From contig JANUWF010001719.1 in NCBI GenBank assembly GCA_026120185.1, positions 2,256,501-2,320,500 on the forward strand: a DNA stretch of 64,000 nt, given 5' to 3'. Position 1 is the stretch's first letter, and every line of letters begins with the position of its first letter. Under the pieces are notes generated by a model. It ran no database searches. It was not told the origin of the DNA and was given only the letters and a program-made list of their open reading frames with translations. The DNA is from Voacanga thouarsii (Eukaryota > Streptophyta > Magnoliopsida > Gentianales > Apocynaceae). The position numbers were made by a program, and so were the translations under genes. This document shows, one piece after another, positions 8,211-59,379 of this stretch.

Positions 8211-8561
8211 TGTTATGAATTATTGGAATCTCCATTAATTAGTGGAGGCTCCACTAATTATGGATTTATGTGAATTATTAGAAGATTTTTATGGATATCC
8301 ACCATTTAGTGGAGACACCATTAATTGAGATTAGTTGAAGATGATGTATGCCATGATGCATTCCACTAATTAGAGCTCTATAAATAGAGCTATGCTCTAA
8401 GCTTGTAATACACCATCATTTGTGAAAGAAAGATTAGAGAAAGAATTGTGAGAGAAAGAAAGAGAGAAGTTTGAAGAGAAATTTTTGTGCAAAGAATAGT
8501 TAGAATTTTCTTAGTGTGTAGTGTGTAGATTTTATTCTAACACTACCCTAATTTTATAACA
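8211..8561 (+). repeat. Copia-1 5' LTR
   Basis: 351 bp, TGTTAT to ATAACA, followed directly by the family's CGTTATCAGC primer-site sequence. It contains a TATA-like CTATAAATAGAGC at about 8379 and lacks one copy of a 15-bp GAAAGAAAGATTAGT repeat that the other three LTRs of this family here carry twice. Confidence 0.9.
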
Positions 8562-9230
8562 CGTTATCAGCATGAGTCTCTACCGTTATTAAAGCCAGAA
8601 GACAGGTACGCATTTATTGATCTCGCTAAATTCGAATTTGTAGCCCTTGATATTTCTGGAAAAAAAAATTATATGTCATACAGAAATGCATCTAAATGCT
8701 AAAAAAAATGAGATCCATATGTCATGTGGATAAAAAGAAAGATTTGACCACCTGAAGATGGTCGTACTACCCACTGTACGACATAAATGGTTGCACCTGA
8801 AGTTGCAAGATTGTAAAATCGTGAACTCATTGATGTATAAAACTACATCTTAGTTAAAAATTTTACGGAGAAAAAGTTATTGATGAAGTTATATTGGAGA
8901 AGACATTCTCCACTCTTCATGTTCTACAGTAACAATATCGAGAAAAATGGTATCCAAAATTGACAGCTTTAACATGAGTTATTATTGAGAAATCATGAAG
9001 CCAGATGAACTGGCTCAACAGCACTCCCAGAAGTGAATGCTGTTGGCTCCAGCAGAAGCCATCGTTATAGTCGTAGTTGTGGCAGTGGCCGTGGTTATGG
9101 TCATGGACACACTCGATATTTCCCTTATCACAGAGAAATACTGGCCACCTGAAGTGGAACAGAAAAGATAATAAGGGAAAAAGATATTTCTATTAATAAT
9201 AAGCATCACATCTTTTATTCATATCACTAG
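8562..9230 (+). pseudogene. Copia-1 leader and gag remnant
   Basis: After the primer site, a gag N-terminus is visible near 8610-8680 (EFVALDISGK), and a gag C-terminus near 8990-9150 (NHEAR, TGSTALPEVNA, then Ser/Arg/Gly/His-rich sequence ending PYHREILAT). The middle of gag and the zinc knuckle are missing, with stops in what remains. The same deleted arrangement occurs in copia-2 (18510-19174). The deletion therefore predates the split of the two copies, and this lineage must borrow gag from another element to move. Confidence 0.6.
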
Positions 9231-9418
9231 TGTTCATATGAACTTGAGGATACATGCTTATAGTTGCTCTTTTGTAATTGAGCATTTGATTGGTGATGGA
9301 AGTGTTCAAAATAATTAAAAGTTTACTTTTAATATGTTTCTTTTATATTTTATATTTTTGGCATTGTAATAGTACTTATCGTTTTAGGTTTTTATTATTT
9401 GAGTATTTACATTTATAA

Positions 9419-11041
9419 ATGTTTTGTTATGCCCAGATGGCTATTATTCCGCTTACTGGATACACAAATAGCATTGAAGATATATGCCTAATTGATAGTG
9501 GTACAACACACACCATATTAAAAGATAAAAAATATTTCTCTTACCTGCAGATGGGAGAAACAAATGTTAATACTATAGGTGGTAGTGTAAAGTTGATTGA
9601 AGGCTCTGGAAGAGCTAATATTGTATTACCCGGAGGAACAAATGTTGTTATTCCTAAAGCGTTATTTTCTTCAAAATCTCGAAGAAATTTATTAAGCTTT
9701 AAAGATATTCGCCAAAATGGATATCACATTGAAACAATGGAAGAAAATAGTTTTGAGTATCTCTGTATTACTCAAATAATGTCGGGTAAGAAATCTTTAT
9801 TAGAAAAGCTACCATCTCTTTCTTCTGGCCAATATAGCACAAAAATCCAGCTACCATCTCTTTCTTCTGGCCTATATAGCACAAAAATCCATGCAATTGA
9901 AATGCATCATTCAGTAAATCAGAAATTTACTGATCCTGTTACATTTATCATTTGGCATGACCGTTTGGGTCATCCAGGAGCTATTATGATGCGAAGAATA
10001 ATTGAAAATACACATGGTCATCCTTTGAAAAGTCAAAGGATTTTGACATCTGATAAATTTTCATGTACTGCATGTTCTCAAGGGAAATTGATTATTAAAC
10101 CATCTCCAACAAAAGTGGAGTTTGAGTCTCCAGTATTTTTAGAAAGAATTCATGGTGATATATGTGGACCAATTAATCCACCATGTGGGCAATTCAGATA
10201 CTTTATGATTTTAATTGATGCATCGACCCGATGGTCGCATGTTAGTTTATTATCAACTCGCAACCTGGTGTTCGCGAGATTGCTTGCCCAAATAATTCGC
10301 TTAAGAGCGCAATTTCCAGATTATCCGATCAAAATGATCCGTCTAGATAATGCTGGAGAATATTCCTCCCAAGCTTTTGATGCTTATTGCCTGTCAATTG
10401 GCATTACTATTGAACATCCAGTAGCTCATGTTCATACTCAGAATGGTCTAGCTGAATCATTCATTAAATGGTTACAATTAATTGCTAGACCGTTATTAAT
10501 GAGAACAAATCACCCGACAACTGCTTGGGGACATGCTATTTTGCATGCTGCAGCACTTGTACGCCTAAGGCCAACAAGTTATCACAAATTTTCTCCCTTA
10601 CAATTGGCTTTTGGTTCTGAGCCAAATATAGCTCATTTAAGAATTTTTGGGTGTGCTGTATATGTTCCAATTGCACCAAACCAACGTACAAAGATAGGTC
10701 CTCAAAGAAGAAATGGGATCTACGTTGGATATGATTCTCCCTCTATTATCAGGTATGTTGAACCCCTGACAGGAGATGTATTGACAGCAAGATTTGCTGA
10801 TTGTCATTTTGATGAATCATTATTCCCTAAATTAGGGGAGAACCAAAACAAGCATAAAAAGGATCTTGCTTGGACAACATCATTAAATTATCTTGATCCG
10901 CGCACAAGCGCATGTGAACTTGAAGTTCAAAAGATAATTCATTTGCAAAGCATTGCAAATCAAATGCCGGACGCTTTTGTTGACTCCGGAAGAATTACAA
11001 AATCGCATATTCCAGTCTATAAATGCTCCTATTCGAATTGA
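9419..11041 (+). CDS. Copia-1 protease, GAG-pre-integrase and integrase
   Basis: A 540-residue open frame. The aspartic protease signature is LIDSGTTHTIL at residues 25-35 (D26-S27-G28). The GAG-pre-integrase zinc region follows from WHDRLGHPG (residue 179) to CTAC (216-219). The integrase core has D247 (HGDICG), D310 (RLDNAGE) and E346 (NGLAES), giving the D,D-35-E triad. These would process the polyprotein and insert the cDNA. Residues about 131-160 hold a tandem duplication (LPSLSSG-YSTKI twice), from a 42-bp repeat. The frame ends at TGA 11041, and a damaged linker precedes RT. Gag normally sits in the same frame upstream and is absent, so the ATG used here is only the first in the frame. 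Confidence 0.8.
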   Translation: MFCYAQMAIIPLTGYTNSIEDICLIDSGTTHTILKDKKYFSYLQMGETNVNTIGGSVKLIEGSGRANIVLPGGTNVVIPKALFSSKSRRNLLSFKDIRQNGYHIETMEENSFEYLCITQIMSGKKSLLEKLPSLSSGQYSTKIQLPSLSSGLYSTKIHAIEMHHSVNQKFTDPVTFIIWHDRLGHPGAIMMRRIIENTHGHPLKSQRILTSDKFSCTACSQGKLIIKPSPTKVEFESPVFLERIHGDICGPINPPCGQFRYFMILIDASTRWSHVSLLSTRNLVFARLLAQIIRLRAQFPDYPIKMIRLDNAGEYSSQAFDAYCLSIGITIEHPVAHVHTQNGLAESFIKWLQLIARPLLMRTNHPTTAWGHAILHAAALVRLRPTSYHKFSPLQLAFGSEPNIAHLRIFGCAVYVPIAPNQRTKIGPQRRNGIYVGYDSPSIIRYVEPLTGDVLTARFADCHFDESLFPKLGENQNKHKKDLAWTTSLNYLDPRTSACELEVQKIIHLQSIANQMPDAFVDSGRITKSHIPVYKCSYSN

Positions 11042-13000
11042 AGTTCCAGTAGAACAAAATATTATAACTATAGTCTGCTGAGTCAAAAACACGCCAGAAG
11101 CGTGGCCGACCTCTTGGTTCTAAAGATAAAAATCCTCGAAAGAAAAGAGGATTAAATGATCCAGAAGATCATATTGAAGAAAATAATGATAAAGACCAAG
11201 AGAGAACTGATGACAAAGAACCAGAAGTTGATGAAGTAACACTGAAATTTCTATCAATTATACCACTTCCGGTAGAAGTTGGAATCGGATAGAAACTGTT
11301 ATTGATAATATATTTGCATACAATATATATCTCTTGATGTTACACAGGATAATGATGATTTTGAACCAATATCAGTTGATGAATGTCGGCATAGAAAAGA
11401 TTGGTTGCAATGGAAACATGTGATTCAATCGGAGTTAAATGCACTGACAAAACGTGAAGTCTTCGGACCTGCAGTCCGAACACCAAAAGGTGTAAAACCT
11501 GTTGGCTACAAATGGATATTTGTGCGAAAGAGCAATGAAAAGAGTGAAATCGTTCGATATAAAGCGCGATTAGTAGCCCAAGGTTTTTCACAAAGACCAG
11601 GTATTGATTATGATGAAACTTATTCTCCTGTTGTTTATGCTATTACACTCCGATATCTTATCAGTTTGGCAGTACATGAAAAGATAGATATGCGCCTATT
11701 AGATGTTGTCACTGCTTACTTGTATGGAAATTTAGAAAATGATGTTTACATGAAATTCCCCGAAGGATTTCATATGCCTGAAGCATATAAACATTATCCT
11801 CGTGAAAATTACTCCATCAAGTTGCAGAAATCATTATATGGCCTGAAGCAATCTAGGCGCATGTGGTTCACACGTCTTAGTGAATATTTATTGAAAGCGG
11901 GATTTAAAAATGACCAGGTATGTCCATGTGTTTTTATTAAGAAATATAGTTCTAAATTTGTGATATTAGCTATATATGTTGATGATATTAATCTTATTGA
12001 AACTCCTGAAGAGCTCCAAGAAACAATTGATTATTTAAAAAGAGAATTCGAAATCAAGGATTTTGGTAAAACCAAATTTTACCTTGGTTTACAAATTGAA
12101 CATCTGGAGAGTGGAACATTTATTCATCAATCAACATATACAACAAAAGTACTAAAAAGATTGTACATGGACAAAGCACATCAATTCAGTATTCCAATGA
12201 TCGTCCGATCATTAAATGTGGATAAAGATCCTTTCCGACCTCAAGAAAATGATGAAGAACTCCTTGGTCCTGAAGTACCATATCTCAGTGCAATTGGTGC
12301 ATTGATGTATCTTGCTAATAATACATGACCTGATATTGCTTTTACTGCCAATTTATTAGCAAGATTTAGTTCTTCACCAACACGACGACATTGGAATGGA
12401 ATTAAACAAGTCCTTCGATATCTCCAAGGTACAATTGATCTCGGATTATTTTATTCAAATAAAACCAGTCCAACATTGATAGGTTATGCAGATGCTGGTT
12501 ATTTATCTGATCCACATAAAGCACGTTCTCAAACGGGCTATCTATTTACATGTGGAAATACTGCTATATCATGGCGTTCTACGAAACAATCTATAGCAGC
12601 TACTTTTTCAAATCATGCTGAAATTATAGCCATTCATGAAGCAAGTCGAGAATGTGTATGGCTAAGATCCATGATTCATTATATTCGAGAAAGTTGTGGA
12701 TTATCATCAATCAAAGATATTCCAACTCCTCTTTATGAAGATAATGTAGCTTGCATAGCTCAATTACGAGGAGGATATATTAAAGGAGATCGGACAAAAC
12801 ATATTTCACCAAAATTCTTCTTTACTCATGAACTCCAGAAGAAATGTGAAATTGATGTGCTACAAATTCGGTCATGTGATAACCTCGCAGATATTTTCAC
12901 GAAGACTTTACCGACTGCAACATTTGAGAAGTTGAGATATAAAATCGGTATGCGTCGGTTTAAAGATTTAAAGGAATCATCTCATCAGGGGGAGTAATAA
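11042..13000 (+). pseudogene. Copia-1 reverse transcriptase and RNase H (disrupted)
   Basis: A linker with stops and frame changes (11042-11404) precedes a good RT frame (11405-12328): KWIFVRKSNEKSE, RYKARLVAQGFSQRPGIDY, LYGLKQS, then YVDDINLI, the catalytic motif. A TGA at 12326-12328 replaces the CGA arginine found in copia-2 (TRPDIAF). The same frame then runs on to TAA at 12995-12997 through RNase H (IGYADAGYLSD, QTGYLFT, PLYEDNVACI, TKHISPKFFF, LADIFTKTLP). The single nonsense codon is a CpG-type transition, typical of methylated DNA. Function in a live element is cDNA synthesis. Confidence 0.85.
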
Positions 13001-13120
13001 ACAGACATATAGAATAGTGTACTCTTTTTCCTTCACTAGATTTTTTTCCCACTGGGTTTTTATCTAGTAAGGTTTTAACGAGGCATATTCTTTATGTATG
13101 GATGGATATCCAAGGGGGAG

Positions 13121-13486
13121 TGTTATGAATTATTGGAATCTCCATTAATTAGTGGAGGCTCTACTAATTATGGATTTATGTGAATTATTAGAAGATTTTT
13201 ATGGATATCCACCATTTAGTGAAGACACCATTAATTGAGATTAGTTGAAGATGATGTATGCCATGATGTATTCCACTAATTAGAGCTCTATAAATAGAGC
13301 TATGCTCTAAGCTTGTAATACACCATCATTTGTGAAAGAAAGATTAGTGAAAGAAAGATTAGAGAAAGAATTGTGAGAGAAAGAAAGAGAGAAGTTTGAA
13401 GAGAAATTTTTGTGCAAAGAATAGTTAAAATTTTCTTAGTGTGTAGTGTGTAGATTTTATTCTAACACTACCCTAATTTTATAATA
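13121..13486 (+). repeat. Copia-1 3' LTR
   Basis: 366 bp, preceded by the polypurine tract AAGGGGGAG. It differs from the 5' LTR by about five substitutions, one extra 15-bp repeat unit (about 13332-13365) and a mutated terminal ATAATA. Confidence 0.9.
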
Positions 13487-13600: not shown

Positions 13601-14170
13601 ATATAGGAGTATAGTCCAACATTAAATAAAATAAGAATATAACCAAAGTTTAAAATAACTTATAAATCTAATATAATTTTTAAAATAATACATAGGTGTA
13701 GCCCAACTTTAAACTTAAACATATGAGTTTAGCCCAATTCAAAATAAAACAACTTTGGCCCAAGATATCGAAAGAAAATAAAACATCAACCCGGGTTTTT
13801 CTTTTTTGTTTAAAAACTAGGTCCACAGTGGCCCACTGTCATGGGCCACCAGGGCCTATACAGTAGCCCAAAACTTTGTTTTTTATTTGTTTATTTTCTA
13901 AAATTTGTGGGAACATCAACAATGTTACAATCCCCACATCAAATGGTTCGCTCACAAACGGTGAACAGAAAACCGAAAAGCACTCTTTTTTTTTTTTTAA
14001 ATTTAAACGACTGGGGAACATCAGCGATGTCCCCACGGTAAAATGAAACCGCAGGCAGCGGCTTACAGGGGAAAACCATTTTTTTTTAAGCAACCAACAA
14101 ATGAAACCGACTCCAACCCGTTTTTTAATACATTTTGAGTAAATCAAACAAAAGGCAACAAATAGCTGCC
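13492..14170 (-). repeat. Gypsy 5' LTR, middle piece between copia-1 and copia-2
   Basis: This 680-bp spacer continues the gypsy LTR. It contains a TA tract (about 13570-13596), a GC-rich patch near 13826-13865 (GTGGCCCACTGTCATGGGCC) and poly-T runs. No gene is seen; apparent open frames across 13839-14147 are unconvincing. Confidence 0.45.
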
Positions 14171-14536
14171 TGTTATAAAATTAGGGTAGTGTTAGAATAA
14201 AATCTACACACTACACACTAAGAAAATTTTAACTATTCTTTGCACAAAAATTTCTCTTCAAACTTCTCTCTTTCTTTCTCTCACAATTCTTTCTCTAATC
14301 TTTCTTTCACTAATCTTTCTTTCACAAATGATGGTGTATTACAAGCTTAGAGCATAGCTCTATTTATAGAGCTCTAATTAGTGGATTACATCATGGCATA
14401 CATCATCTTCCACTAATCTTAATTAGTGGTGTCTCTACTAAATGGTGGACATCCATAAAAATCTTCTAATAATTCACATAAATCCATAATTAGTAGAGCC
14501 TCCACTAATTAATGGAGATTCCAATAATTCATAACA
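14171..14536 (-). repeat. Copia-2 3' LTR
   Basis: 366 bp, TGTTAT to ATAACA on the plus strand, with an adjacent polypurine tract on the minus strand at about 14537-14552. It has two copies of the 15-bp repeat. Confidence 0.9.
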
Positions 14537-14660
14537 CTCCCCTTGGATGTCCATCCATTACATAAAGAATATGCCTCGTTAAAACCTTACTAGATAAAAA
14601 CCCAGTGGGAAAAAAAATCTAGTGAAGGAAAAAGAGTACACTATTCTATATGTCTGTTTA

Positions 14661-16823
14661 TTACTCCCCCTGATGAGATGATTCCTTTAAATCTTTAAAC
14701 CGACGCATACCGATTTTATATCTCAACTTCTCAAATGTTGCAGTCGGTAAAGTCTTCGTGAAAATATCTGCGAGGTTATCACATGACCGAATTTGTAACA
14801 CATCAATTTCACATTTCTTCTGGAGTTCATGAGTAAAGAAGAATTTTGGTGAAATATGTTTTGTTCGATCTCCTTTAATATATCCTCCTCGTAATTGAGC
14901 TATGCAAGCTGCATTGTCTTCATAAAGAGGAGTTGGAATATCTTTGATTGATGATAATCCACAACTTTCTCGGATATAATGAATCATGAATCTTAGCCAT
15001 ACACATTCTCGACTTGCTTCATGAATGGCTATAATTTCAGCATGATTTGAAGAAGTAGCTGCTATAGATTGTTTCGTAGAATGCCATGATATAGCAGTAT
15101 TTCCACATGTAAATAGATAGCCCGTTTGAGAACGTGCTTTATGTGGATCAGATAAATGAACAGCATCTGCATAACCTATCAATGTTGGACTGGTTTTATT
15201 TGAATAAAATAATCCGAGATCAATTGTACCTTGGAGATATCGAAGGACTTGTTTAATTCCATTCCAATGCCGTCGTGTTGGTGAAGAACTAAATCTTGCT
15301 AATAAATTGACAGCAAAAGCAATATCAGGTCGTGTATTATTAGCAAGATACATCAATGCACCAATTGCACTGAGATATGGTACTTCAGGACCAATGAGTT
15401 CTTTATCATTTTCTTGAGGTCGGAAAGGATCTTTATCCACATTTAATGATCGGACGATCATTGGAATACTCAATGGATGTGCTTTGTCCATATAAAATCT
15501 TTTTAGCACTTTTGCTGTATATGTTGATTGATGAATAAATGTTCCACTCTCCAGATGTTCAATTTGTAAACCAAGGTAAATTTTGATTTTACTAAAATCC
15601 TTGATTTCGAATTCTCTTTTTAAATAATCAATTGTTTCTTGGAGCTCTTCAGGAGTTCCAATAAGATTAATATCATCAACATATATAGCTAATATCACAA
15701 ATTTAGAACCAGATTTCTTAATAAAAACACATGGACATACCTGGTCATTTTTAAATCCCGCTTTCAATAAATATTCACTAAGACGTGTGAACCACATGCG
15801 CCCAGATTACTTCAGGCCATATAATGATTTCTGCAACTTGATGGAGTAATTTTCATGAGGATAATGTTTATATGCTTCAGGCATATGAAATCCTTCGGGG
15901 ATTTTCATGTAAACATCATTTTCTAAATTTCCATACAAGTAAGCAGTGACAACATCTAATAGGCGCATATCTATCTTTTCATGTACTGCCAAACTGATAA
16001 GATATCGGAGTGTAATAGCATCAACAACAGGAGAATAAGTTTCATCATAATCAATACCTGGTCTTTGTGAAAAACCTTGGGCTACTAATCGCGCTTTATA
16101 TCGAACGATTTCACTCTTTTCATTGCGCTTTCGCACAAATATCCATTTGTAGCCAACAGGTTTTACACTTTTTGGTGTTCGGACTGCAGGTCCGAAGACT
16201 TCACGTTTTGTCAGTGCATTTAACTCCGATTGAATCGCATCTTTCCATTGCAGCCAATCTTTTCTATGCCGACATTCATCAACTGATATTGGTTCATGAT
16301 CATCATTATCCTGTATAACATCAAGAGATATATGGTCTGCAAATATATTATCAATAACAGTTTCTATCCAATTCCAACTTCTACCGAAAGTGGTATAATT
16401 GATAGAAATTTCAGTGTTACTTTCATCAACTTCTGGTTCTTTGTCATCAGTTCTCTCTTGGTCTTTATCATTATTTTCTTCAATATGATCTTCTGGATCA
16501 TTTAATCCTCTTTTCTTTAGAACCAAGAGGTCGGCCACACTTCTAGCGTATTTTTGACTCAGCAGCTATAGGTATAATATTTTGTTCTGCTGGAACTTCA
16601 ATTAGAATATGAGCATTTATAGCTGGCATATGCGATTTTGTTACTCTTCCAGAGTCAACAAAAGCGTCTGGCATTTGATTTGCAATGCTTTACAAATGAA
16701 TTATCTTTTGAACTTCAAGTTCACACGCGCTTGTATGCGGATCAAGATAATTTAATGATGTTGTCCAATCACGATCTTTCTTGTACTGTTTCTGTTCTCC
16801 CCCTAATTTAGGGAATAATGATT
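14661..16823 (-). pseudogene. Copia-2 reverse transcriptase and RNase H (one stop)
   Basis: Two minus-strand frames, 16538-15807 and 15797-14661, are the same reading frame split by a single TAA where copia-1 has CAA (GLKQS). Conserved parts are KWIFVRKRNEKSE, KARLVAQGFSQRPGIDY, YVDDINLIGTPEE (catalytic), TRPDIAFAVNLLARFSS, then RNase H (GYADAVHLSDPHKAR, PLYEDNAACIAQL, LADIFTKTLP). Compared with copia-1 the arginine after NNT is intact. Homology to copia-1 begins exactly at 16823, next to the gene cargo. Repair of one base would open the frame, so it was active until recently. Confidence 0.85.
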
Positions 16824-16997
16824 TCACAAGAGAATAAGAAAAGAAATATAAGAAAATGATGATAAGTAGGAAATGCCAAGAAAAATATCTCCTTTTTTTT
16901 TCACTCTTCCCGGTACCGACTTTTCATCTTCCTCTCTTGTCTTTTCTTCTCCTCCGACCCTCTACCTACCATCTACCTCTTCTTCTTCCTCATACAG

Positions 16998-17045
<48 letters not shown>

Positions 17046-17108
17046 ATCGATATATATTTCAGTTATCAGTCATTAGTAAACATCAAAAACAAAAATCACA
17101 AAGCAGAT
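16824..17108 (+). promoter_or_regulatory. Putative promoter and 5' UTR of the captured RWP-RK gene
   Basis: 285 bp between the copia junction (16823/16824) and the first ATG are not shared with copia-1. They include CT-rich runs common near plant start sites, a (TA)n(TG)n microsatellite at about 16999-17044, TATATATTTC at about 17050, and an A-rich leader before the ATG. This suggests that genomic DNA with its own upstream sequence was captured, not a spliced mRNA. Promoter activity is inferred. Confidence 0.4.
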
Positions 17109-18509
17109 ATGGAGACTCGTAATTCATTTGAGATATGGTCAAATTTTGACTCGGTTTCTGCAGCAGATGTTGATGTATTTTCCTTTCCAAACCAACCGCT
17201 TCTGCCTAATTCGAACACAGAAGATTTTGATATGTTTTCCTTTCCAAACCAACCGCTTCTGCCTAATTCGAACGCAGAAGATTTTGATATGTTTTCCTTT
17301 CCAAACCAACCGCTTCCTCCTAATTTCAGGTGAGATACCTTTGAGGGCTTCCATTTGTTTTTAGTATGCTTGATAATGAAATTAAACTCTCTTTTGGTTT
17401 GTTTTTTATGTAAATCGATGGAAGTTTTGAACATACCGCTTTGGACCAAGTTGATCTCGCCCCTACAAGAGACTCGCTTTAATATCTGTTCCTTTTGATG
17501 CTATTCCTTTGAATGAGGATATGCTTGTGCATGATCCTTTCTACTCTTTAATGGATTTTGAACAAAGCCAGAATATGTTTCCAGGTTATTATACATTTAA
17601 ACATGGATTTTGAATGGTATTACCTTTACTGATATTATTTTCTTTTTCTAGGAGAAATAATAAGTGGTATTGGCAACGAAGTCGGAGTAAGTACTCATGA
17701 AATGCATAATATCGAAGTTCAAGATATTATTGCAGACAAAATTCCTGGGGAGAAGAAGATGATTAAGAGGCAGAGAGAGAAGAAGGGCAATAACTCTCAA
17801 ACACTATCAAGAGAAACAATTTCGCAATACTTTTACCTACCAATCAAGAGCGCAGCCAAAGAACTGAATATTGGCATAACCCGTCTCAAGAAAAGATGTA
17901 GGGAGTTAGGAATTCGTCGATGGCCTCACAGGAAATTGGTGAGTTTGGAGACCATAATCAAGAATGTTCAAGTTCTCTCTCATACATACTTATAAATTGC
18001 AAGTATGAAACTATGAAAGATTTATAAGTAAATAACCGATGATATCATTTCGATTTACAGGAGATGCAAATAAAGAAGAAGGAGGACATATGACTGAGAA
18101 GAAGTTGAAAGAAGCCATTGCGATACTGGAATGTGAAAAACAGTTGGTGGAAGAAAGTCCTAATACGCAGTTAGATGACCAAACACAGAAATTGAGACAA
18201 GCATGCTTCAAGGCCAAATATAATAAGAAATTTAATTATAATAAACTTAAGGAGATTATAAAATCTCAAGACTCATTTCGCAGTAATTTTACGGCTAATT
18301 CTGCTGCTAGTCTCGATGCTGGCTCAAAGGGGAAAGAAAATGAGGAGGATGTCGAAAAAGATAAGCTGAAGTCCATAATTACTAATTGTTTATCTTCCTC
18401 TAATGTAAATATTGAAAAAGAACAATTACAAACATTCATCTTACATTTGTCAGCTCAATTACAAAAGAGCAACTATAAGCATGTATCCTCAAGTTCATAT
18501 GAACACTAG
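17109..18509 (+). CDS. RWP-RK domain (RKD-like) gene carried in copia-2, probably damaged
   Basis: RKD proteins are plant transcription factors acting in egg-cell and embryo programmes. Exon 1 (17109-17329) encodes METRNSFEIW and three 19-residue repeats (FSFPNQPLLPNSN type). It ends CAG/GTGAG. Exon 2 (about 17433-17584) encodes SFEHTALDQVDLAPTRDSL and, one base out of frame, ISVPFDAIPLNED. Exon 3 (17652 to about 17972) carries the RWP-RK domain: LSRETISQYFYLPIKSAAKE, LNIGITRLKKRCRELGIRRW, PHRKL. Exon 4 (18061-18509) has the coiled C-terminal part with KLRQACFKAKYNKK, typical of RKDs. Lesions: the exon 2 frame shift and a weak donor after NVQ (17972; one base appears missing). The last 19 codons lie in sequence shared with copia-1. 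Exon limits are by eye. Confidence 0.7.
17170..17328 (+). repeat. Three 57-bp tandem repeats inside RKD-like exon 1
   Basis: Units begin near 17170, 17227 and 17284, each containing TTTTCCTTTCCAAACCAACC. 57 is divisible by three, so the protein gains 19-residue repeats (VFSFPNQPLLPNSNTED type) without loss of frame. Units differ by very few bases, so the expansion is recent. Confidence 0.85.
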
Positions 18510-19174
18510 TGATATGAATAAAAGATGTGATGCTTATTATTAATGGAAATATCTTTTTCCCTTATTATCTTTTCTGTTCCACTTCAGGTGGCCAGTATTT
18601 CTCTGTGATAAGGGAAATATCGACTGTGTCCATGACCATAACCACGGCCACTGCCACAACTACGACTATAACGATGGCTTCTGCTGGAGCCAACAGCATT
18701 CACTTCTGGGAGTGCTGTTGAGCCAGTTCATCTGGCTTCATGATTTCTCAATAATAACTCATGTTAAAGCTGTCAATTTTGGATACCCTTTTTCTCGATA
18801 TTGTTACTGTAGGACATGAAAAGTGGAGAATGTCTTCTCCAATATAACTTCATCAGTTACTTTTTCTCCGTAAAATTTTTAACTAAGATGTAGTTTTATA
18901 CATCACGGAGTTCACGGTTTTACAATCTTGCAACTTCAGGTGCAACCATTCATACCGTGCAGTAGGTGGTACGACCATCTTCAGGTGGTCAAATCTTTCC
19001 TTTTATCCACATGACATATGGATCTCCTTTTTTTTAGCATTTAGATGCATTTCTGTATGACATATAATTTTTTTTTTCAGAAATATCAAGGGCTACAAAT
19101 TCGAATTTAGCGAGATCAATAAATGCGTACCTGTCTTCTGGCTTTAATAACGGTAGAGACTCGTTCTGATAACG
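18510..19174 (-). pseudogene. Copia-2 leader and gag remnant
   Basis: This is the near-identical counterpart, on the minus strand, of 8562-9230 in copia-1: primer site next to 19174, a short gag N-terminus, a deleted centre and the gag C-terminus. It is broken by stops. The junction with the RKD cargo lies on its inner side. Confidence 0.65.
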
Positions 19175-19541
19175 TGTTATAAAATTAGGGTAGTGTTAGA
19201 ATAAAATCTACACACTACACACTAAGAAAATTCTAACTATTCTTTGCACAATAATTTCTCTTCAAACTTCTCTCTTTCTTTCTCTCACAATTCTTTCTCT
19301 AATCTTTCTTTCACTAATCTTTCTTTCACAAAATGATGGTGTATTACAAGCTTAGAGAATAGCTCTATTTATAGAGCTCTAATTAGTGGATTACATCATG
19401 GCATACATCATCTTCCACTAATCTTAATTAGTGGTGTCTCCACTAAATGGTGGACATCCATAAAAATCTTTTAATAATTCACATAAATCCATAATTAGTG
19501 GAGCCTCCACTAATTAATGGAGATTCCAATAATTCATAACA
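19175..19541 (-). repeat. Copia-2 5' LTR
   Basis: 367 bp; on the minus strand it ends directly at the CGTTATCAG primer-site sequence. It has two copies of the 15-bp repeat and differs from the 3' LTR by about six substitutions and one indel. Confidence 0.9.
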
Positions 19542-19546
19542 CTGCC

Positions 19547-50999: not shown

Positions 51000-52095
51000 C
51001 GATGCAAATCTACGACATGAAGTAATGAAAGCCGAGATTGAGTCTATGTACTTCAATCAAGTTTGGAATCTTGTAGCTTCACTTGAAGGGATAAAACCCA
51101 TTAGGTGTAAGTGGTTATATAAGAGGAAGAGAGGAGCGGATGGGAAGGTGGAAACCTTCAAAGCTAGGCTTGTGGCGAAAGGGTATACTCAGAAAGACGG
51201 AATCGATTATGATAAAACCTTTTCTCCGATAGCCATGCTTAAGTCCATCTGTATCCTCCTTGCCATTGCATGTCATTACGACTATGAGATATGACAAATG
51301 GATGTCAAGACAGTATTTCTTAATGGCCATCTTAACGAAGACATCTATATGTCTCAACCGGAGGGTTTTATTGCTAAAGGTTAGGAACATATGGTCTACA
51401 AGCTTAAGAAGTCTATTTATAGACTTAAGCAGTCATTTAGAACATGGAACATTCATTTTTGACGAGAATGTACAGTCTCACGGTTTTATTCAAAACAAAA
51501 ATGAACCATGCGTGTACAGAAAATTAGAATGCATAAATGTGATTTTTCTTGTCTTATATGTAGATGATATTCTACTCATTGGGAATGATGTAGGGATATT
51601 GTCATCTATTAAGGTTTGGTTGTCTAGTCAATTTAGTATGAAGGACTTGGGAGAAGCCAATTACATTCTCGGAATTAAGCTTATTAGAAATTAGAAACAG
51701 AGAATGTTAGGATTATCCCAAGTGACATACATTGATAAGATGTTAGCCAAGTTTAGCATGGGCTCATGCAAGGGAGTTATAATCCCTTGCAGACACGGGT
51801 TGTCTTTTTATTCAAGGACTGTTCTAAGTCCCAAGAAGAAAAATATAGGATGAGTAGGATTCCCTATGCTTCGGCTGTGAGAAGTCTCATGTACTCCATA
51901 CTATGCACTAGGCCAGATATTTGTTTTATTGTAGGCTTAGTTAGCAGCTATCAGTCAAACGCTGGGGAGGTTTATTGGCAAGCTATAAAGCATATTTTTA
52001 AGTACCTCATTGGTATGGAAGATTATATGCTAGTTTACAAGACTGACGACTTGGTTCCTACTAGATACATGGACTTAGATTTCAAGGCAGATAAG
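51000..52095 (+). pseudogene. Copia-4 reverse transcriptase, first part
   Basis: KWLYKRKRGADGKVETFKAR, LVAKGYTQKDGIDYDKTFSP, then QMDVKTVFLNGHLNEDIYM and YVDDILLIGNDV (catalytic, near 51560). TRPDICFIVGLVSSYQS follows near 51910. A short deletion around 51430, stops and frame changes interrupt it. The sequence breaks at 52095 where the solo LTR begins and resumes at 53552. Confidence 0.85.
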
Positions 52096-58559: not shown

Positions 58560-58914
58560 TTATACTTCATCTGACAACGATCGCGTGAGGAACCAGTGAT
58601 GTCCAAGACTCCAAGGCAACCATGGATTTTTCTTCTGAGGTGCTTCTTTGAGGTGCAATAGTAGAGGAATCAGTCTCTGAAGCAAGGTGACTGAAGAATC
58701 TGGGGAAAGGAGTCGAAAGAAAGAACAAAGGAGCCGGATCCGGATGTGGTTAGACAGTTCCTTTAGCTGCTCCAACACACACCCATTCCTGAACTCCTCG
58801 TGGCTCAAGTCCGCAAATTCATTCAGCCCCAGCCAATAAGTCTTCAGCTTCTTATTTGAGTCATGGATATGCTTCAGATTATCCAAGAAAATCTCAAATC
58901 TCACAGCTTTTCCT
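58560..58914 (-). pseudogene. Papain-like cysteine protease prodomain fragment (XCP-like)
   Basis: Codons at about 58912-58785 give VRFEIFLDNLKHIHDSNKK and YWLGLNEFADLSHEEFRN. The spacing R-x3-F-x2-N-x3-I-x3-N is the ERFNIN signature, and NEFADLSHEEF covers the GNFD-type region of the I29 inhibitor prodomain. The wording is closest to xylem cysteine peptidases. The catalytic domain is missing; sequence after RN is unrelated. It directly follows, in another frame, a receptor fragment at 59247-58960. Confidence 0.65.
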
Positions 58915-58944
58915 CTATGGTTTTGTATGTTGTGCGATGTTTTG

Positions 58945-59379
58945 ACATCCAGGAAACCAGGCGGTTGCCTTACTCTTGTTTTTGTGTTTGTGGGGAACTG
59001 AGGTTGAGGGTGCGGTTGCGGGAGCTTTAGCAGAGCCTGAACTTGAATCACCTCTACCAGAAGCTGCCTCTGCAAATGAGTGTTTTTCTGTTGCTGAATT
59101 TTCAACAAAAACATAACGTTTTGGTACAGTATTTTCCTCCAACTCTGATGCTGAATATTTAACTTGGCTCAATACGGGCACAGGGCCTTCAAGTAAACTA
59201 TTTCCAGAAATGTTCAAGAACCGAAGACTCCAAAAAGATCTCAAACATGAAGGCTTAAATACAACTTCATCATCTTCAGTCTTTTGGGGAGTAGCTTTCC
59301 TTGAAGTGAAGTTAAGTACTGGTAAGAAGAGAACAAAAAAGAATTTACACTGTTGGTGATAGACGATAGTACAAGACAT
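58945..59379 (-). pseudogene. SOBIR1-like LRR receptor fragment (last LRR to juxtamembrane)
   Basis: The minus frame gives SLRFLNISGNSLLEGPVPVL, SQVKYSASELEENTVPKRYV, FVENSATEKHS, then Ala/Pro/Ser-rich sequence and HKHKNKSKATAWF. SOBIR1-type receptor kinases have this order: a last LRR, GP-PV-SQVK, a VLAENS-like segment, a Pro/Ala stretch, KHHHKKK and the start of the membrane span. SOBIR1 is the co-receptor for LRR receptor-like proteins in immunity. The membrane span and kinase are absent; homology stops where protease prodomain sequence begins. The assignment is from remembered family sequence. Confidence 0.5.

Follow-up and report, generated by a model that had tools for sequence, protein, structure and literature searches.

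An antisense, intron-bearing RWP-RK gene in the protease/integrase slot of a recurrent copia family in Voacanga thouarsii

How does a retrotransposon come to carry a host regulatory gene with its introns in place, and does such a gene serve the element or only travel with it? The question arose at a locus of Voacanga thouarsii, in a stretch of 64,000 nucleotides (assembly GCA_026120185.1, contig JANUWF010001719.1, positions 2,256,501 to 2,320,500 of the forward strand) that we call the window and whose positions are used throughout. A first-pass annotation made from its letters had described a copia element here, copia-2, with two long terminal repeats (LTRs), a perfect CTGCC target duplication, and a plus-strand RWP-RK gene lying inside the minus-strand element. 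We located each of these parts, and found that the arrangement recurs well over 1,000 times in the genome. Copia-2 very probably belongs, as a broken copy, to a large non-autonomous copia family in which a host RKD-like gene was captured in antisense and then amplified.

The element and its antisense gene

14166 to 14170: target-site duplication CTGCC, left of copia-2
14171 to 19541, minus strand: copia-2, a non-autonomous Ty1/copia-type element with an antisense RWP-RK gene, delimited by its LTR pair, the flanking CTGCC and alignment to copia-1
14171 to 14536, minus strand: 3' LTR of copia-2, with TG..CA ends
14661 to 16565, minus strand: reverse transcriptase (RT) / RNase H remnant of copia-2 (Pfam RVT_2, E = 5.3e-20 and 2e-33)
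16824 to 18452, plus strand: captured segment (the cargo), antisense to copia-2, bounded by the ends of homology to copia-1 and recurring genome-wide
18453 to 19174, minus strand: gag remnant of copia-2 with many stops, ~96% identical to copia-1 8562–9283 and called gag by reading of translations only
19175 to 19541, minus strand: 5' LTR of copia-2
19542 to 19546: target-site duplication CTGCC, right of copia-2
8211 to 13486, plus strand: copia-1, a sister element between AATAT duplications that has protease/integrase and no cargo

Copia-2 is an LTR retrotransposon, with two direct LTRs (98.1% identical to each other), TG..CA ends and a target-site duplication. The RVT_2-type RT of copia-2, together with the integrase found upstream of the RT in copia-1, places it in Ty1/copia. 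In that upstream region of copia-1, gag_pre-integrs and SH3_retrovirus scored above the Pfam cut-off and rve reached 29.9 bits against a cut-off of 32.6. The RT frame of copia-2 contains an in-frame stop between 15807 and 15806, and the gag region is broken in both elements alike, as judged by reading of their translations.

The two elements matched at ~96% over the LTR, the gag remnant and the RT, that is, on both sides of the cargo. Between these matching parts, the protease/integrase of copia-1 (~9284–10808) occupies the slot that the cargo holds in copia-2; thus, the alignment bore out the earlier proposal that the cargo stands in place of those two enzymes.

The anatomy of the gene in the window copy is as follows.

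16824 to 17108, plus strand: captured upstream sequence, 285 bp, containing (AT)n(GT)n at 16998–17045; a putative promoter
17109 to 17329, plus strand: exon 1, containing a tandem repeat (17161–17325) with an in-frame unit of 57 bp (19 codons)
17330 to 17424, plus strand: intron 1, GT-AG
17425 to 17584, plus strand: exon 2, shifted out of frame in the window copy when compared with open copies
17585 to 17651, plus strand: intron 2, GT-AG
17652 to 17971, plus strand: exon 3, with the RWP-RK domain (Pfam PF02042, ~17804–17947)
17972 to 18060, plus strand: intron 3, matching in position and phase an intron of host gene L048
18061 to 18509, plus strand: exon 4, with a frameshift close to its beginning in the window copy; 18453–18509, including the TAG stop, is element-derived
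18517 to 18522, plus strand: AATAAA directly past the stop, in element-derived sequence; a putative poly(A) signal

Exon bounds were set by comparison with other cargo copies. The first-pass annotation had reported 285 bp of upstream sequence, introns at 17330–17432 and 17585–17651, and a gap before 18061. The upstream sequence, the second intron and the end of the third (18060) stood; intron 1 ends at 17424 rather than 17432, and intron 3 was found to start at 17972. The same annotation had run the gene to 18509, where the stop codon does lie (18507–18509), but the captured part ends at 18452 and the remainder is antisense copia sequence. The last codons therefore belong to the element and not to the captured gene; they read NYKHVSSSSYEH, or near variants of it, in 20 copies with long flanks described below, one of which (L013) has a stop immediately ahead of them.

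A domain search for RWP-RK, which the annotation had proposed as a test of itself, recovered PF02042 with E = 5.6e-23 and 81 bits in the window copy, and with 78.5 bits in an open copy elsewhere in the genome (L018), against a gathering cut-off of 29.3. This match and the cargo matches elsewhere in the genome ruled out a chance open reading frame (ORF). In the 382-residue ORF of L018, PF02042 was the sole Pfam domain found (E up to 0.01), and there was no PB1. We take an RWP-RK domain without PB1 to mark an RKD rather than an NLP protein; with PF02042 and no PB1, the cargo gene fits RKD rather than NLP. A search of solved structures gave 0 matches.

All six intron borders are GT/AG in the window copy, and the splice dinucleotides were preserved almost throughout the copies compared: both were intact in 39 of 39 for intron 1, GT in 39 and AG in 38 of 39 for intron 2, and each in 38 of 39 for intron 3. 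The RWP-RK exon of the window copy is open. Because its exons 2 and 4 are out of frame relative to the open copies, we regard it as a decayed family member that, as its sequence reads, cannot make the full protein. Alternative splice sites that might restore the frame were considered and dropped, given that other copies have clean frames.

The 57-bp repeat of exon 1 varied in number in whole frame-keeping units, giving exon 1 lengths of 164, 221, 278 or 335 nt among copies picked by their junctions; L067, L068, L071 and L073 show this variation. As for the neighboring elements, copia-1 and copia-2 are inverted relative to each other, with 3' LTR arms 688 bp apart in a comparison of the LTR arms. 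Two substitutions were common to both 3' LTRs and present in neither 5' LTR, as if gene conversion had acted near the center. The pol region of copia-1 also contains a 42-bp tandem duplication (9807–9891).

Recurrence, age and origin of the arrangement

The genome searched was the window's own assembly (1.346 Gb, 1,848 contigs), and the copies read number fewer than 70 out of thousands. The cargo search scored 40 of 3,198 candidates, among which 39 were other genomic places that matched the cargo; 38 of these spanned nearly the whole cargo at 94–96% identity, and one match was split. For 20 copies long flanks were included, and for 18 the cargo alone was studied. With up to 3 mismatches allowed, a 29-mer across the 3' cargo/element junction occurred 893 + 900 = 1,793 times in the genome and a 30-mer across the 5' junction 1,296 + 1,273 = 2,569 times, while reversed junction patterns, used as controls, occurred 0 times. 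When 50 of the 100 3' junctions shown were checked, 26 had a 5' junction listed 1,491–1,677 bp away in the same orientation. A Pfam scan for RWP-RK gave 3,618 candidates in the genome, and the best 150, which were scored, all lay above the cut-off.

Results showed the same order, LTR – gag remnant – antisense cargo – RT – LTR, in all 20 flanked copies, and a protease/integrase query found no match in any of them; these copies were found through the cargo itself, so that its presence in 20 of 20 depends on that choice. Exceptions in detail were a 3' LTR that is interrupted (L013), one that reaches the contig end (L019), and a gag remnant that is partly duplicated (L026). A script detected an exact 5-bp target duplication in 13 of the 20, of which one (L028) is ambiguous, and the duplications differ from site to site. 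Because the junctions recur and the arrangement is common to all 20 flanked copies, we concluded that the cargo transposed with the element many times, as the first-pass annotation had supposed from a single locus; the search that it had suggested for further copies with both LTRs and RWP-RK segment thus succeeded in every flanked copy. An artefact of assembly or annotation, by which the gene would only seem to lie within the element and in favor of which we found nothing, has next to no probability when thousands of junction matches fall on many contigs and different duplications stand at different sites.

The family is non-autonomous, with no intact gag-pol. Because gag is broken even in copia-1 and the RT frame was interrupted in all 20 other copies examined, gag, protease and integrase would have been supplied in trans by other elements. 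Helper dependence had been predicted from the loss of protease and integrase; it would extend further than that, to gag and RT as well.

LTR distances in the 18 copies in which they could be measured ranged from 0 to 0.055 with a median of 0.020, which corresponds to ~0.8 million years at a rate of 1.3e-8 per site per year borrowed from pearl millet (PMC10011142). Copy L027 had 0 differences over 354 aligned LTR bases (354/354), together with an open RWP-RK frame. The cargo tree was star-like, terminal branches making up 91% of its length. Two further groups were distinguished by reading: subfamily B, with 10 copies ~90% identical to the window type, and subfamily C, with 3 copies ~80–83% identical to it. 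Those checked for flanks (2 of 10 in B, 2 of 3 in C) adjoin the same element modules. The capture should be older than the subfamily split, because all three subfamilies carry the cargo. One C copy (L066; G000:C888:380300-387500) has a ~1.5 kb insert in the upstream part of its cargo.

Two host RWP-RK genes, L047 and L048, had no element sequence within the 2.45 kb fetched. In L048, a phase-0 intron follows NVK and precedes GAG ATG, and intron 3 of the cargo lies at the identical place after NVQ. Because position and phase coincide, the cargo can be identified as a host-type gene, at least one of whose introns is ancestral.

We propose that an element already without working gag swapped its protease/integrase for a host RKD-like RWP-RK gene in antisense, the captured unit comprising upstream sequence, four exons and three introns. 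The exchange may have occurred by template switching between packaged RNAs as they were reverse-transcribed, or during repair of a break with filler DNA. Since the element RNA reads the gene backwards, the introns would not have been spliced out, and each cycle of reverse transcription would have copied the gene with its splice sites; this explanation of intron survival, already offered by the annotation, is consistent with our data but not proven. On the gene strand, the element would supply the stop codon, the last codons and the AATAAA. The capture would predate the three subfamilies, the window type having then spread recently from sources with an open RWP-RK frame while the linked RT decayed.

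Another transposon with the gene, such as a Helitron or Pack-MULE, might instead have landed in a copia element, and from general background such elements often carry intron-bearing gene fragments. The cargo, however, replaces ~1.5 kb of protease/integrase and does not interrupt it, and a repeat search (pairs of at least 40 bp) detected no inverted-repeat pair at its ends; on these two grounds a nested DNA transposon was rejected. Identical cargo edges also recur among the copies. Nested insertion is accordingly an improbable account, and the variant that remains is an insertion followed by deletion, both prior to amplification.

Several observations weigh against the capture that we propose. 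The donor gene was not found, and the two host genes examined match the cargo at only 42% (L047, 69 residues) and 58% (L048, 59 residues) identity in the domain region. On one side of copy L065 (subfamily C), the stretch fetched contains neither gag nor LTR. Between subfamily C and the window type, the cargo has diverged further (synonymous divergence, dS, 0.26) than the RT (dS 0.13), and the RT of copia-1, at a dS of 0.039 to the window type, falls inside that type's own spread (0.058) although copia-1 is cargo-free. The simplest reading of these values is that the middle module was probably exchanged between elements with like flanks, and for this reason we do not regard one simple history of capture as proven.

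Two other features were noted in the window: a further copia-type RT fragment at 51233–51691 on the plus strand (RVT_2, E = 1.3e-12), and a minus-strand ORF at 58563–59168 that matched the cathepsin propeptide inhibitor domain I29 (E = 1.1e-12) and may represent a cysteine protease gene, whole or fragmentary.

Reading frame and selection on the captured gene

The spliced four-exon ORF was open in 9 of the 39 copies ranked by cargo similarity, and at least one stop was present in the spliced frame of 30 of the 39, window copy included. Among seven copies picked by zero-mismatch junctions, one was open through the four exons and two more had a single stop. Open frames alone were not taken as selection, because some copies would still be open after neutral decay from a recent source with an open frame. 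We give an even chance to the gene being inert filler of this kind, its open frames left from a recently amplified source and bound to decay. The 30 copies with stops and the star-like tree favor that account, as do two null comparisons given below. It sits less easily with the RWP-RK domain remaining recognizable, with an open frame, in three subfamilies (a biased view, since domain score guided the choice of the B and C copies), and with the contrast between cargo and RT within the same elements, to which we now turn.

Substitutions were compared with a neutral expectation that allows for the mutation spectrum and for methylation context; plain pairwise dN/dS was given little weight because it ignores a strong C>T/G>A bias. 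All p values are uncorrected for the number of tests. Cargo substitutions common to at least two of the 39 copies had a nonsynonymous to synonymous ratio (N:S) of 91:55, with 4 stops, which is 0.57 of expectation (p = 0.0012). The shared N:S of exon 3 was 0.42 of expectation (p = 0.018), and stops made up 2.7% of shared cargo substitutions against 6.5% expected. In the 21 copies measured for both regions, N:S was 0.57 of expectation in the cargo (p = 0.036) and near neutral in the RT (0.92, p = 0.66), and stops were 3.0% versus 6.6% expected in the cargo and 7.0% versus 7.2% expected in the RT. Compared directly on shared changes, cargo and RT differed in N:S (Fisher test, p = 0.038) and not in stops (p = 0.37). 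Frame-breaking indels shared between copies numbered 3 in 1,096 bp of cargo exons versus 20 in 1,905 bp of RT (P = 0.003 at the RT rate; Fisher test of shared against private, p = 0.20). We kept this indel contrast as weak support, in that choosing copies by cargo similarity could bias it.

Such a pattern would be expected if an RWP-RK protein were made from the antisense gene and helped the element, so that copies with a working gene spread more. The protein might, for example, act on the LTR, or promote a germ-line or embryonic state that lets new copies pass to the progeny. The retention of the frame by recently inserted copies agrees with this. Within the cargo, however, shared and singleton changes did not differ significantly (N:S p = 0.27, stops p = 0.11), nor did fixed A–B differences and singletons (p = 0.43). 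Cargo singletons deviated as well (N:S 0.73–0.75 of expectation, p = 0.02–0.04), unlike neutral decay after insertion, and thus the neutral expectation itself may be off. The introns and upstream sequence were likewise poor in shared indels (1 in 460 bp), which the choice of copies by cargo would give. We therefore regard a regulator encoded by the element as a serious possibility that we are nonetheless inclined to doubt. Taken together, the comparisons suggest, without showing it, protein constraint on the cargo, and the linked RT looks neutral. More specific, and to be offered only tentatively as a rather unlikely outcome, is the idea that the copia family has made the gene an accessory of its own: transcribed in antisense and spliced, it would yield an RKD-like protein that purifying selection maintains as the enzymes decay and that steers element transcription or cell state toward inheritance of new copies.

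Comparison with known systems

RKD proteins regulate egg-cell and embryo identity (PMC6389702), and the family described here would be a route by which a gene for such a regulator multiplies together with its upstream sequence. Cargo copies would inflate annotated counts of RWP-RK genes, and might be a source of new regulators or of silencing RNAs. The family combines a recognizable host source family, retained host introns, antisense capture, and ages from 0 to several percent LTR difference. Because the source family is recognizable, introns are present and copies span ages, the origin of antisense genes, the survival of their introns and their recruitment can be tested in one genome.

Captured host genes are common in LTR elements, with examples in maize, rice and sorghum and in Bs1 and Rider/SUN (PMC2774510, PMC3726574, PMC13317346); in one of these sources, Baucom et al. 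counted 425 maize elements from at least 189 gene-fragment captures. The copia-2 family resembles them in having host sequence between LTRs with target duplications. Maize captures gave few copies each, whereas here one arrangement occurs more than 1,000 times, and its cargo is nearly gene-length, antisense and intron-bearing.

The nearest precedent for an expansion of the RWP-RK family tied to LTR elements is pearl millet, in which RWP-RK genes overlap intact LTR elements; the available text of that study describes no antisense cargo, junction or non-autonomous family, and gives neither element structure nor copy numbers per element (PMC10011142). A host-derived domain gained by an LTR lineage is also known from orchids, where Ty3/gypsy elements recently acquired an AlkB-like domain. 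Unlike copia-2, those elements are Gypsy, and a screen of 121 angiosperm genomes reported domain gains in Gypsy-type elements only and none in Copia-type, the term 'RWP' being absent from its main text as available (PMC9289625). A search of the open-licence literature by title and abstract returned no description of a copia family that carries an RWP-RK gene in antisense.

The closest structural parallel is with the additional ORFs (aORFs) that lie antisense in plant LTR retrotransposons such as Grande (gene23), RIRE2, Retand (ORF4/TRP28) and PvRetro13. These belong to Ty3/gypsy families, lie mostly between pol and the 3' LTR, and are described as of unknown origin (PMC7264820, PMC11963269), in part because, according to a review, similar host genes are lacking for them and transduced sequences are usually in sense (PMC7264820). 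Like the cargo, an aORF is an extra gene antisense to gag-pol in many family copies, with a DNA-binding domain suspected, and the aORF of Grande has its own promoter and a nuclear product. Unlike them, the cargo belongs to a copia family, fills the protease/integrase slot, derives from a known host transcription factor family and keeps host introns. It lies between gag remnant and RT, whereas an aORF-3R lies between pol and 3' LTR; an antisense ORF in most family copies, by which aORF-3R elements are defined, was present in all 20 flanked copies, which were found through the cargo, and absent from copia-1. If the captured gene does prove to be an accessory gene, the family would offer a visible case of how the antisense accessory genes of plant retrotransposons arise.
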